A stretch of 61,776 bases of DNA from an uncultured Ectothiorhodospiraceae bacterium. Lineage in GTDB: Bacteria > Pseudomonadota > Gammaproteobacteria > Nitrococcales > Nitrococcaceae. Positions 37,870 to 41,694 of the stretch are shown piece after piece (positions within the stretch are counted from its first letter, which is position 1; each line of letters opens with the position of its first letter). Made by a program: the position numbers and the translations under genes. The DNA lies in assembly GCA_913056315.1 (NCBI GenBank), contig CAJXMZ010000002.1:1-61776 (forward strand), given 5' to 3'. The notes beneath the pieces were generated by a model. The model ran no database searches, was not told the origin of the DNA, and worked only from the letters and a program-made list of their open reading frames with translations.

Positions 37870-37892
37870 TAGTTTGGAAGTTTTCCAAACTA
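37870..37892. promoter_or_regulatory. Perfect 23-bp palindrome before the metal ABC transporter operon
   Basis: The arms TAGTTTGGAA (37870-37879) and TTCCAAACTA (37883-37892) are perfect 10-bp inverted repeats around a GTT centre. The palindrome ends directly against the AGAGGA ribosome binding site of the solute-binding-protein gene, 11 bp before its GTG start. The length and symmetry suit an operator for a dimeric metal-dependent repressor (MntR/DtxR or Fur/Zur type). It could also fold as an RNA hairpin that hides the ribosome binding site, or end the argG message, although no T tract follows. Confidence 0.6.
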
Positions 37893-37903
37893 GAGGATCG
37901 GCC

Positions 37904-38857
37904 GTGGTTTCAAAACTCGCCGGATTGTTGTTGGTCATGGGCTTGTCATTGACTAGTGCGCTGGCCAGCGCAACAACGTCACCGCCACCGGTGTTGGCGA
38001 CAACGGGCATGATTGCCGACCTAGCCGAGCGTGTGGGTGGCGAGTGTATTGCGGTGACTGGGTTAATGGGACCAGGTGTTGACCCGCATCTTTATCAACC
38101 GTCGGCCGCTGATGTGCGGCGTTTTCAGCATGCCGAGCTGGTGCTCTACAACGGATTGGGTTTGGAGGGTCAGCTCGATCCGGTGCTCAAGCGCTTTGGG
38201 CAGCGTCGGGTGACCTTGGCGGTGGCAGAGGCAGCCGCTACGAATGGTCCACGACAAACCCTGCCCAGTGCCGATGGCCGCAGCGTTGATCCGCATGTAT
38301 GGATGGATGCGCGGTTTTGGGCACAAGCAATCACCCCGGTGAGCCAGGCGCTAGCTGACGTTGCCCCCGACTGCGCTCAGGCGATCGAGGCCCGCGCGCA
38401 GCGCTACCGCCGCGAGCTATTGGCCCTTGATCAATGGATGGCCGAGTCGATTGCCACCATCCCGTCTGCTCAGCGTATTTTAATGACCGCTCACGATGCA
38501 TTTGGCTATTTTGGCCGGGCCTATGACATTGAAGTGCGCGGTATCCAGGGTATTAGCACCTCGGCTGAAGCGGGCGTGGGCGATATTCAAGCCATGGCAA
38601 CGTTAATTCTCGAGCGCCAAGTACCGGCGGTGTTTGTTGAGAGCACGATTAATCCCCGCACGATCGAAGCCGTGATTGAAGCGGTGCGCGAGCGGGGCTT
38701 TCGGGTTAAAAAAGGCGGCATGCTCTACGGGGATGCCCTAGGCCAGCCCGGCACACCCGTGGATACCTTGGTGGGTATGCTCAGTTATAACGTGCAAACA
38801 ATCACTCAAGCCCTGGGGGGTACCCCTAGACCTTTGCCAGCGATAGTCCTGCCATGA
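37904..38857 (+). CDS. Mn/Zn-type ABC transporter, solute-binding protein
   Basis: A 317-residue periplasmic metal-binding protein (TroA/ZnuA family). The signal peptide runs LAGLLLVMGLSLTSALASA. Metal ligands are seen in DPHLYQP, DPHVWMD and TAHDAFGYFGRAYDI, with the ISTSAEAGVGDIQ and FVESTINPRT segments characteristic of Mn/Fe-type members. It lacks the His-rich loop usual in ZnuA. The GTG start is chosen because AGAGGA lies 6-7 nt upstream and the signal peptide begins there; the frame reads further upstream into argG. It overlaps the ATPase gene by 4 nt. Manganese is the favoured substrate, given the Mn-type SodA. Confidence 0.9.
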   Translation: MVSKLAGLLLVMGLSLTSALASATTSPPPVLATTGMIADLAERVGGECIAVTGLMGPGVDPHLYQPSAADVRRFQHAELVLYNGLGLEGQLDPVLKRFGQRRVTLAVAEAAATNGPRQTLPSADGRSVDPHVWMDARFWAQAITPVSQALADVAPDCAQAIEARAQRYRRELLALDQWMAESIATIPSAQRILMTAHDAFGYFGRAYDIEVRGIQGISTSAEAGVGDIQAMATLILERQVPAVFVESTINPRTIEAVIEAVRERGFRVKKGGMLYGDALGQPGTPVDTLVGMLSYNVQTITQALGGTPRPLPAIVLP

Positions 38858-39654
38858 GTCATTCCCCGAGTGATCCGGATGTTCATCACGACCCCTCGAT
38901 TGCGCTGCATTTAGAGGATCTCACCGTGAGCTACGGTGAGCGCCCGGCGTTATGGGATATTGATCTCGACGTTCCCGCCGGGGTGATGGCTGGCATTATT
39001 GGCCCGAATGGCGCGGGTAAAAGCACATTAATTAAAGCCATCTTGGGTCTTGTGCCGGTGTCAGCGGGTCACATCCGCCTATTTGGCGAGCCCTATGGGC
39101 AACAACGCCGGCGGGTGGGGTATGTACCACAGCGCTCGAGTGTGGATTGGGAGTTTCCCACGACCGCGGTTGATGTGGTGACGATGGGTTTATATGGCCA
39201 GCTTAGTTGGTGGCGTTGGCCGGGCCGTGGTGAGCGTGATCAAGCTTTGCGTGCGCTCGAGCAGGTCTCAATGGAGTCACTCGCTGATCGTCAGATTAGC
39301 GAGCTGTCTGGCGGCCAGCAGCAGCGCGTGTTTATTGCCCGGGCGTTGGTTCAAAACCCCGACATTCTGTTGCTCGATGAACCCATGGCCGGTGTGGATG
39401 CAACCACAGAGCGGCAAATTATTGATTTATTGCGCCGCTTACGCGATGACGGGCGCACGGTGATTGTGGTTCACCATGATTTACAAACGGTGCAGCGCTA
39501 TTTTGATTGGTTGGCGTTTTTAAACGTGCGCATCATTGCTGCGGGCGCGCTGGAGCATGTCTACACCGCCAATAACCTACGCCGGGCGTATGGCGGTCAA
39601 GTTGCTCTTTTAGACGAGGCGCAAAACCGCCCGAACGCGCCCAGCGATGCTTAG
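38854..39654 (+). CDS. Mn/Zn-type ABC transporter, ATPase
   Basis: A 266-residue cytoplasmic ATPase of the metal importer. It has Walker A GPNGAGKST, the Q-loop in YVPQRSSVDWEFP, signature ELSGGQQQRVFIARAL, Walker B ILLLDEPMAGVD and the switch His in VIVVHHDLQ. The VPQRSSVDWEFP segment is typical of Mn/Fe-type (MntB/SitB) ATPases. It overlaps both neighbours (ATGA upstream and 8 bp with the permease). Confidence 0.93.
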   Translation: MSHSPSDPDVHHDPSIALHLEDLTVSYGERPALWDIDLDVPAGVMAGIIGPNGAGKSTLIKAILGLVPVSAGHIRLFGEPYGQQRRRVGYVPQRSSVDWEFPTTAVDVVTMGLYGQLSWWRWPGRGERDQALRALEQVSMESLADRQISELSGGQQQRVFIARALVQNPDILLLDEPMAGVDATTERQIIDLLRRLRDDGRTVIVVHHDLQTVQRYFDWLAFLNVRIIAAGALEHVYTANNLRRAYGGQVALLDEAQNRPNAPSDA

Positions 39655-40801
39655 CTTTTTAACTGACTACACGTTGCAAAATGTCATGATCGGGGCAGCC
39701 CTGATTGGCATTATTAGCGGCGTGCTGGGTTGCTTTGCAGTGCTTCGTCGACAAAGCCTGCTGGGCGATACGCTCTCGCATGCTGCCCTTCCCGGGGTGT
39801 GCTTGGGCTTTTTATGGGCGGGCAGTCGGTCTATGGAAAGCCTCATGGCCGGGGCTTTATTCAGTGGCGCTGTGGCCACCGTGATAATGCTTACGCTGAC
39901 GCGGCGCACCCGATTAAAAATGGATGCCGCGCTCGCGGTAACGCTAAGCCTGGGCTTTGCTTTGGGTGTGGTGTTGCTTACCTTTATTCAAAATCGGGGT
40001 GGAGCTGCTCAAGCCGGGCTCGATAGCTTCTTATTTGGTCAGGCCGCCGCGACGGTGCGTGGCGATCTCTATCCCATGGCGGTCATTGTCTTAATCGGGT
40101 TGAGTTTGGTCGTGGTGTTTTGGAAGCCACTCAAACTTATGACCTTTGATCCAGAGTATGCCGCGGTAAGTGGCTTGCCCGTGCGCCTGCTTGAGCTTTT
40201 TCTCACCGGCATGATCGCCTTGGCCGTGGTGGTGGGGCTGCAAATGGTGGGGGTGATTTTAATGACCGCCATGGTCATTGCCCCGGGGGCGGCGGCGCGG
40301 CAGTGGTCGGGTAGTTTGTTAGGGATGTTGTTATTAGCGGCATTTTTTGGCGCGACGGCCGGGATCAGTGGCGGGGTGATTAGTGCGCTGGCGCCGGGGC
40401 TTTCAACGGGTCCGGTGGTGGTTTTGGTTGCTAGCGCGATTGCCTTATTTTCCTTGTTGTTTGCCCCGCAGCGTGGCCTGATTCCAAGCCGCTGGCGGCG
40501 TCGCCATAAGCGCAGTCATACCTCCAGTGATCGTATTTTGCTTACCGTCTACGAACTGGCTCGCGAACATGGGGATTGGTCCTATCGCGTCGAACAAGGC
40601 GCGGTTGATGCCTATTACGGTATGGTTACTGAGCCGCTGTTACAGGCGTTGGCGCAACGTGATTTGCTCAAGGCCGCTGATCACATGCCGGATGAAGGCC
40701 CGCATTGGCAACTGACCCAAAGCGGGTGTGAATACGCCGCGGCGCGCTCGCGCGACCAAAGCCGCACGCGCCGCCTGCGCCAAGTCGAACGTCCGGCATG
40801 A
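39647..40801 (+). CDS. Mn/Zn-type ABC permease with C-terminal winged-helix-like domain
   Basis: 384 residues. Residues about 1-280 are an ABC-3 family metal permease with eight or nine membrane helices (NVMIGAALIGIISGVLGCFAV, RQSLLGDTLSHAALPG). Residues 285-384 form an extra soluble cytoplasmic domain absent from ordinary permeases. It opens with basic RRHKRSHTSSDR, then ILLTVYELAREHG and TEPLLQALAQRDLLK helices and a wing-like HWQLTQSGCEYA segment, resembling a winged helix-turn-helix of the DtxR/MarR kind. Chlamydial YtgCR is a known permease-DtxR repressor fusion; here only the DNA-binding-like part appears present. It overlaps the next permease gene by 4 nt. Confidence 0.88.
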   Translation: MLSFLTDYTLQNVMIGAALIGIISGVLGCFAVLRRQSLLGDTLSHAALPGVCLGFLWAGSRSMESLMAGALFSGAVATVIMLTLTRRTRLKMDAALAVTLSLGFALGVVLLTFIQNRGGAAQAGLDSFLFGQAAATVRGDLYPMAVIVLIGLSLVVVFWKPLKLMTFDPEYAAVSGLPVRLLELFLTGMIALAVVVGLQMVGVILMTAMVIAPGAAARQWSGSLLGMLLLAAFFGATAGISGGVISALAPGLSTGPVVVLVASAIALFSLLFAPQRGLIPSRWRRRHKRSHTSSDRILLTVYELAREHGDWSYRVEQGAVDAYYGMVTEPLLQALAQRDLLKAADHMPDEGPHWQLTQSGCEYAAARSRDQSRTRRLRQVERPA

Positions 40802-41694
40802 GTTTAGTCGACCCCACCATTGCGATTTTAATCACCGGCGCGTTGGTCGGCATGACCGGGGCGTTGCTGGGGAGCTTTTTGGTCTTGCGTGGCAACAGTA
40901 TGTTGGCCGATGCCATTAGTCATTCGATTCTTTTTGGCATTGCGGTGGCTTGGCTTTTAACCGGGCAAACCAGTGGCCCGGTGCAAATCATTGGCGCGGC
41001 ACTCAGCGGGGTGTTGGCGGTCTTTTTAATTGAGTTGCTCACGCGCACACGGCGCTTACGTGACGATGCGGCCATCGGTTTGGTGTTTCCGGCACTGTTT
41101 TCTGCTGGCGTGGTGTTAATTAACGTCTACGCCCGCGATGTGCATTTAGATGAACACACCGTGTTGCTAGGTGAAATTGGCTTTGTTTGGCTCGACACAC
41201 TCACCATTGCAGGCATGGAAATACCGCGAGCCATGCTCACCCTGAGCGTGATGTTATTGGTTGATGCGCTGTTTGTGTTGGCGTTTTTTAAGACACTCAA
41301 GCTTGCCACGTTTGATGCCGACTTAGCGCGGGTCCTTGGGCTGATGCCAGGCCTGATTTTTTATGCGCATTTATCCTTACTCAGTGGCACGGCAGTCGCG
41401 GCATTTGATGCGGTCGGCGTGGTGCTATTTATTAGTTTTGTGGTGGTGCCGCCGGCTGCGGCGTATTTGGTCACGCAACGATTGGTGAGTTTAATTGCAC
41501 TGGCCATGTTGATTGCCGCCGCCAGCGCGCCGATTGGTTATTGGATGGCGGTGTGGCTGGATGTCTCAATCGGTGGAATGATGGCGCTGAGTACGGGGGG
41601 TTTTCTACTGCTGGCTTATTGTTGGCGGCGGTTGAGGGATCACCGCCATTATCGCTCGCGCTCACTTGAACCACCCCCCGCCTCATCGGCGTAG
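40798..41694 (+). CDS. Mn/Zn-type ABC transporter, second permease
   Basis: A 298-residue ABC-3 family permease with about eight or nine membrane helices. Motifs are ALVGMTGALLGSFLVLRGNSMLADAISHS and VVPPAAAYLV. It lacks the soluble domain of its partner. Two different permeases in one operon are usual for MntABCD/SitABCD-type importers and point to a heterodimeric channel. The 3' end overlaps the convergent nth gene by 46 bp. Confidence 0.91.
   Translation: MSLVDPTIAILITGALVGMTGALLGSFLVLRGNSMLADAISHSILFGIAVAWLLTGQTSGPVQIIGAALSGVLAVFLIELLTRTRRLRDDAAIGLVFPALFSAGVVLINVYARDVHLDEHTVLLGEIGFVWLDTLTIAGMEIPRAMLTLSVMLLVDALFVLAFFKTLKLATFDADLARVLGLMPGLIFYAHLSLLSGTAVAAFDAVGVVLFISFVVVPPAAAYLVTQRLVSLIALAMLIAAASAPIGYWMAVWLDVSIGGMMALSTGGFLLLAYCWRRLRDHRHYRSRSLEPPPASSA

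Follow-up and report, generated by a model that had tools for sequence, protein, structure and literature searches.

The window, that is, the whole stretch of DNA analysed here (61,776 nucleotides from an uncultured Ectothiorhodospiraceae bacterium), carries a four-gene importer operon on the forward strand. A gene for a ZnuA-family binding protein (37904–38857) is followed by genes for an ABC_tran ATP-binding protein (38854–39654), permease 1 (39647–40801) and permease 2 (40798–41694). The binding protein matched the NCBIfam models AztC and MntC, both below cut-off, and its GTG start at 37904 was proposed by eye from a signal-peptide-like N-terminus. The top NCBIfam model for the ATPase was the manganese protein MntA, again below cut-off. 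Permease 1 (384 aa) is a member of the ABC-3 family: residues 8–272 matched PF00950 with an E-value of 3.5e-72 and 243.5 bits (cut-off 20.1). Residues 37–199 matched PsaBC (7kyp) with Z 12.6, 77 aligned residues and 35% identity, a match that covers part of the membrane domain only and leaves the tail outside. Permease 2 (298 aa) ends 24 residues past residue 274, and in the nine other genomes of the genus whose permease 1 bears the tail described below it ends 21–29 residues past this point. The order of binding protein, ATPase, permease and permease is that of SitABCD and MntABCD. We infer an importer of this type, with manganese or iron as its probable metal.

Permease 1 continues past its membrane part into a C-terminal domain of residues 285–384, which we call WH1 (40499–40798; the first base of codon 285 is 40499). 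These residues lie outside the ABC-3 match. An earlier sequence-only reading had placed a separate soluble domain here, after the last membrane helix and with a basic start. Both points were borne out: the ABC-3 match ends at residue 272, the tail is predicted to fold, and residues 281–291 have a net charge of +6. Alignment and charge count put the basic linker at residues 281–290 (40487–40516). Two further segments stand out by conservation, H308–E316 between helix 1 and helix 2 (40568–40594) and the wing segment HMPDEGPH from H346 to H353 (40682–40705).

The same reading had suspected a winged-helix-like fold, and structure prediction followed by comparison with MarR and DtxR proteins agreed with it. 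AlphaFold2, run on the tail with 20 homologues, gave a model with pLDDT 86.3 and pTM 0.74 in the order helix-strand-helix-helix-strand-strand-helix. Counting residue 281 as 1, the helices are 2–28, 37–44, 49–57 and 78–101 and the strands 34–36, 61–64 and 73–76; the same tail elements appeared in the model of the full 384-residue permease. The top Foldseek match of the tail model was ZitR of L. lactis (E 9.4e-4), the sole match at E≤0.001. VIA-align superposed the model on PadR 5h20 (Z 11.6, rmsd 2.5, 92 residues aligned), on several MarR proteins (Z near 11) and on E. coli MntR 2h09 (Z 10.6, rmsd 2.5, 95 residues aligned, 18% identity). A search of the PDB with a sequence profile of 21 tails found MarR-family chains at E 0.005, with ZitR among them at 0.006–0.013. 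No match at E≤0.001 was found to the tail fold in a viral structure library. The helix-strand-helix-helix-strand-strand arrangement of the model and its matches to solved winged helices support a winged-helix fold for WH1.

A Pfam search with the tail of permease 1 alone returned nothing at E≤5. PF01325 (Fe_dep_repress) matched neither permease 1 nor its tail at E≤5, and it was not among the families listed for the 21 tails at E≤1. The Pfam MarR models did not match the window's tail; MarR_2 matched 5 of the 21 tails, with a top E-value of 0.0092 (cut-offs are not shown for these matches). In the DtxR/MntR family the winged helix is followed by a domain for metal binding and dimerisation. No such domain is present in permease 1, which stops 24 residues past G360, either inside the final winged-helix helix or directly behind it. 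No cysteine is conserved in the 24 aligned WH1 domains.

Conservation in WH1 was assessed on 24 full-length tails. L298, T300, L304, H308, E316, L332, L335, W354, T357 and G360 are invariant, and D310 and Y313 occur in 22 of the 24. H346 and H353 are each found in 22 as well and are missing together in the other two (loci L008 and L044). The conserved polar residues H308, E316, H346 and H353 all lie outside the recognition helix, and from the strand order they may meet in space. The exposed positions of that helix (329–331, 333, 334, 336 and 337) had a mean entropy of 2.32 vs 1.32 for the core. The corresponding helix of 19 MntR-type proteins, a set with many near-identical sequences from Halomonas, differed little in conservation from the remainder of the domain (0.94 vs 0.88).

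By the sequence-only reading, a domain without any positively charged recognition surface would count against its proposal. The recognition helix of the window's WH1 has a net charge of 0 and the core of the domain one of −6, which comes close to such a case. Across the genus this helix is uncharged or slightly acidic, except in G005 (+1). When the charge of helix 3 was compared between WH1 sequences with a domain on the partner permease (WH2, described below) and those with WH1 only, the means were +2.42 (n=12) and −0.55 (n=11), groups that are also largely clades.

To compare constraint on the tail and the membrane part, we calculated median dN/dS. For ten Spiribacter-type genomes the tail gave 0.205 (26 of 45 pairs usable) and the membrane part 0.186 (34 of 45); on the 25 pairs usable for both, the values were 0.200 and 0.171. 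WH1 is therefore under purifying selection within the genus, with a constraint nearly that of the membrane part. Five Rhodobacteraceae gave 0.256 for the tail and 0.167 for the membrane part (10 pairs). Among 17 sequences of the Halomonas group (here Halomonas, Vreelandella and Halovibrio) the tail gave 0.243 (46 of 136 usable) and the membrane part 0.054 (134 of 136). The tails of this group are shortened: in the 7 of the 17 that were aligned, neither the stretch of helix 2 nor the histidines of the wing are present. The shortened-tail loci are L012–L016, L018–L024 and L026–L030, and there the tail evolves faster than the membrane part.

How far the extension is shared was surveyed, as the sequence-only reading had envisaged. 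A scan of a genome collection with query peptide patterns, of which two came from the tail, is biased to close relatives; it found 31 loci, of which 30 have some form of WH1 tail; the exception is L031 from Exiguobacterium. The full tail was found in 14 of 59 relatives, namely ten genomes of the genus (window included), G017, G018, G035 and G040. In a tree of the membrane part, several deeper nodes of which are weak (0.19–0.78), the genus members with an operon but no WH1, three genomes in all, fall inside the WH1 clade, adjoining Rhodobacteraceae (support 0.97). Because they nest there, the tree suggests that WH1 was lost in these three genomes.

A broad distribution was considered and rejected: the WH1 profile A3 found true tails in only 3 of 369 genomes of the class and 2 of 398 of the phylum, with the window's own genome counted in both tallies. 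The other A3 matches (1 in the class, 17 in the phylum) were weak; five of these 18 were examined and proved to be four SufR-like proteins and one short MarR-like frame. One of the SufR-like proteins was named by TIGR02702, below the cut-off of the model. All four (L176, L177, L179 and L181) have a wing motif close to HWxLT, in common with the WH1 tail. The WH2 profile A5 gave four weak matches in the 398 phylum genomes. A plasmid search returned two Paracoccus aestuarii records, each match lying within a metal ABC permease.

That the partner permease lacks such a domain, as the sequence-only reading had stated, is true of the window but not of the wider group. At the same place in permease 2, 15 of the 47 loci examined have a tail of 76–110 residues, which we call WH2 (L005–L010, L017, L025, L032, L072 and L074–L078). 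The 47 include three repeats (L063, L064 and L067 are the same as L003, L002 and L004), and the contig of L011 ends inside the permease 2 gene. By profile, WH2 matched in 6 of the 59 relatives (G004, G007, G011, G017, G035 and G040). The pairing of WH1 with WH2 is a new result of this analysis. The genus was represented by 14 genomes: WH1 alone is present in ten and WH2 alone in three, while the remaining one (G002) is without the operon, only a distant permease having been found there. At L076, L077 and L078 (G004, G011 and G007, all of the window's genus) WH2 is present in place of WH1. In G004 and G011 an mntR gene adjoins the operon on the other strand, and in G007 the contig starts within the ATPase gene, which leaves the flank of the operon out of view.

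The two domains were aligned with each other and with regulator families by hhalign, and each of these scores lay above those of all 60 column-shuffled controls. WH1 against WH2 scored 38.8 (probability 91) and WH2 against MntR 50.1 (probability 95). WH1 scored 46.9 (probability 93) against the four SufR-like proteins, a set itself chosen through the WH1-profile search, and 28.0 (probability 29) against the 19 MntR-type proteins. In the PDB, 21 of the 33 matches of WH2 were of DtxR/IdeR type, with a best E-value of 0.014, although a single protein accounts for many of these chains through its variants; a phage-like scaffolding protein outranked these chains (0.008 and 0.011). In the numbering of WH2 itself, the conserved residues are H19 (14 of 15), H23, E32 and H41 (13 of 15 each) and W44 (15 of 15). 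By these sequence profiles WH2 is homologous to WH1 and closer to DtxR/MntR, and it is predicted to be a winged-helix-like domain. The DtxR-type kinship that the sequence-only reading had drawn from YtgCR is therefore weak for WH1 (29) and shifts to the WH2 of relatives (95, and the 21 of 33 PDB matches). We also considered that a neighbouring mntR had been fused into permease 1, and rejected it: WH1 reaches a probability of 29 with MntR, and the domain that reaches 95 is on the other permease.

Upstream of the operon lies a perfect inverted repeat with 10-base arms and a 3-base spacer (37870–37892), which ends 11 bases 5′ of the proposed GTG of the binding-protein gene. Its core is TTGGAA-N3-TTCCAA and it forms a 7-1-7 dyad. 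The palindrome pointed out by the sequence-only reading is thus real, and a like dyad is similarly placed in most tail-bearing operons of the genus. Scored against the consensus TTGNAATNATTNCAA, which was written after seeing the sites, and with mononucleotide shuffling, the dyad had p≤0.015 at nine of the ten WH1-bearing operons (window 0.015); the exception was G009 (0.305). The exact core occurs in 5 of 20 genomes, once in each: four times at this operon and in G005 before dps, 35 bases upstream of that gene (L164, positions 1501–1515). The looser pattern TTNGAA-N3-TTCNAA has matches in 5 of 14 genomes. That the dyad is an operator private to this operon was rejected. In a control, the reversed pattern turned up at a similar rate, with one or two matches in 19 of 20 genomes; a single match is therefore not rare in itself, and it is the position that counts.

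The dyad was then scored at dps, which is not linked to the operon. Eleven dps genes (L193–L203) were found across 13 genomes of the genus, and eight have the dyad at p<0.05 (G001, G002, G003, G004, G005, G008, G010 and G012). Two of these eight genomes, G002 and G004, are without WH1. The dps upstream regions of the window's genome (G000, 0.246), G007 (0.278) and G011 (0.056) did not show the dyad at p<0.05, and that of G025, from another genus, gave 0.174. The sites before dps and the operon could mark a small iron regulon, possibly regulated by IrrA.

Other lineages have other operators. In G004 and G011, the WH1-less genomes with an adjoining mntR, MntR-like boxes precede the operon, and the mntR product of G004 is MntR above the NCBIfam cut-off. 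The 17 short-tail operons of the Halomonas group have TTAGCCAAGGCTAT-like boxes (p 0.000–0.030), and the WH1-bearing operon of G035 has the box TTAGCAGAGGCTAA (p 0.000). The L007 operon has the MntR-like box TTAGAGACGGCTAA (p 0.000). This locus has both tails as well, and full-length MntR was not found in its MAG, a bin that may be incomplete. Weaker boxes fitted a looser MntR pattern at L005 (p 0.035), L008 (p 0.040) and G040 (p 0.010), and the Pelagibacterium operon L006 had a weak dyad match (p 0.010). The operons of G017, G018 and Rhodobacteraceae fitted neither the dyad nor the MntR pattern. On the simplest account of these upstream sequences, operator type changes with lineage and does not follow the tail, and soluble regulators would read the operators. 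Since the operators vary by lineage and the dyad is shared with dps, a link between the domain and the operator is not supported. Together with the non-basic recognition helix, this speaks indirectly against the proposal of the sequence-only reading that WH1 acts on the palindrome.

Candidate regulators were searched for in the same genomes. The window's genome encodes Fur and IrrA above the NCBIfam cut-offs and Zur below its cut-off, and Fur-family proteins were found in 30 of 30 genomes searched. We infer that IrrA may be the reader of the 7-1-7 dyad. Full-length MntR matched in 18 of 18 Halomonas-group genomes and in 1 of 9 alphaproteobacterial genomes (G420). Within the genus, a full-length PF01325 match occurs only where WH1 is missing (G004 and G011). 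In the ten WH1 genomes the PF01325 match is partial in six (G000, G001, G003, G006, G012 and G013), those of G012 and G013 being at or just above the cut-off, and there is none in four. That the fused domain and a stand-alone MntR strictly exclude each other was rejected, as beyond the genus G017, G035, G040, G420 and all 18 Halomonas-group genomes combine a tail, in one form or another, with a full-length MntR match. In G420, contig C75 (L005 and L150) holds a two-tailed operon as well as a full-length mntR match, which shows that the tails can coexist with a neighbouring mntR.

Our preferred explanation, held tentatively and with slightly less than even confidence as a whole, is that WH1, a winged-helix domain that one importer permease extends into the cytoplasm, is half of an ancestral WH1/WH2 pair and controls the importer at the protein level. 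In the window's lineage, presumably Spiribacter, WH2 is absent. Here WH1 would sit next to the ATPase at the cytoplasmic side of the permease, sense cytosolic metal through its conserved His and Glu residues, and gate or stabilise the importer in the manner reported for FeoC and FeoB. Transcription of the operon would be left to a soluble Fur-family regulator at the 7-1-7 dyad, with IrrA as the best candidate. The fold, conservation, constraint, WH2 pairing and shared dyad were computed; metal binding by WH1, its contact with the ATPase and gating are proposals. A protein-level role is preferred because there is presumably one WH1 per transporter, the recognition helix is not basic, and conserved His and Glu residues lie at helix 1–helix 2 and in the wing. 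It is possible that WH1 senses transport state, as the sequence-only reading had suggested, and this is close to the explanation we prefer. Several observations go against it. Where WH2 co-occurs, most WH1 sequences have a basic helix 3. As MntR and WH1 are also not found together in the genus, DNA binding may be the ancestral role of WH1; MntR only in WH1-less genomes would also be expected from a regulator swap. The dyad is missing before dps in G000, the genome of the window, and in R. sphaeroides, according to the portion of the report available, Irr failed to bind the sitA upstream region (PMC3413700).

The same evidence bears on the other explanations. We consider it unlikely that WH1 is a transcriptional autoregulator like YtgCR, membrane-tethered or cleaved, that sits on its own operator when metal is plentiful. 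The modelled winged helix would suit such a role, as would the nearness of the WH2 profile to MntR/DtxR, the post hoc dyad at nine of ten WH1 operons, full-length MntR only where WH1 is missing in the genus, and the basic recognition helix in most WH1 sequences with WH2. However, like dyads precede dps even in WH1-less genomes, MntR-like boxes stand instead of the dyad at the 17 Halomonas-group operons, G035 and L007, and MntR is present in all 18 Halomonas-group genomes. The recognition helix of the genus is variable as well as almost without positive charge, WH1 has no DtxR dimerisation domain, and one WH1 per putative heterodimer would give no symmetric dimer for a palindrome. A related view, which we find improbable, is that each permease of a heterodimeric metal importer bears one cytoplasmic winged helix, one MarR/SufR-like and the other DtxR-like. 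The transporter itself would then serve as a sensor with two winged helices, or as a transcription factor bound to the membrane, and would link gene control with the state of transport. On this view the lineage of the window would be derived, having kept one half and turned it to transport control.

A tail for assembly or stability, which keeps the two permeases or the ATPase joined or blocks proteolysis of the permease and senses nothing, is a somewhat doubtful but reasonable alternative. Purifying selection alongside a variable recognition helix fits it, and sister lineages manage with WH2 alone or with the shortened form, but the strict conservation of H308, E316, H346 and H353 seems to go beyond the needs of a scaffold. 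That WH1 is a functionless remnant of a former regulator is very unlikely. Its loss from three genomes of the genus and the faster evolving Halomonas-group tails (0.243 vs 0.054), in which the stretch of helix 2 and the two histidines of the wing are gone, would agree with decay, whereas the window's tail retains H308, E316, H346 and H353, and in its lineage the tail is constrained almost as strongly as the membrane part (0.205 vs 0.186).

Among known systems, YtgCR of Chlamydia trachomatis is an ABC-type permease fused to a DtxR-like repressor, from which YtgR is cleaved, and it is described in the accessible portions of two papers as a fusion that acts as a true repressor (PMC7755916, PMC5599777). 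Like it, permease 1 is a metal permease of a four-gene operon with a C-terminal winged-helix domain resembling a regulator. Unlike it, the WH1 tail is only about 100 aa, is without the DtxR metal and dimerisation domain and has weak DtxR kinship; moreover, like dyads lie before dps, and relatives of the window have a domain on both permeases. YtgCR was the only permease-regulator fusion of this sort found in the literature searched. Papers on permease fusions to DtxR or winged-helix domains dealt with Chlamydia and other intracellular bacteria and none with these proteobacterial domains, in a search with most subscription journals outside its scope; the part of a Bacteroidetes iron-response paper that could be consulted had no such fusion.

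The nearest precedent for a winged helix acting on a transporter is FeoC. It is reported to bind FeoB and to protect it from proteolysis in Klebsiella pneumoniae, and the same paper, in the part available, calls the function of FeoC unknown and its role in Y. pestis uncertain (PMC5519574). Both FeoC and WH1 are winged helices tied to a metal transporter, a likeness in the proposed mode of working only, whereas FeoC stands alone and contains an Fe-S cluster and WH1 is fused and has no conserved cysteine. In fold WH1 also resembles the MarR, PadR and SufR types, with a profile probability of 93 for the SufR-like proteins, a name that comes from one of the four and below cut-off. ZitR, AdcR and SufR are soluble regulators, in contrast to the fused WH1. 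A fusion of a transporter with a winged helix need not, then, be a DNA-binding repressor. Relatives with both domains, with either alone or with the shortened form are natural experiments, through which one can test whether a winged helix attached to a transporter senses metal, gates transport or controls genes. Many of the relatives of the window with tails come from halophile genera.
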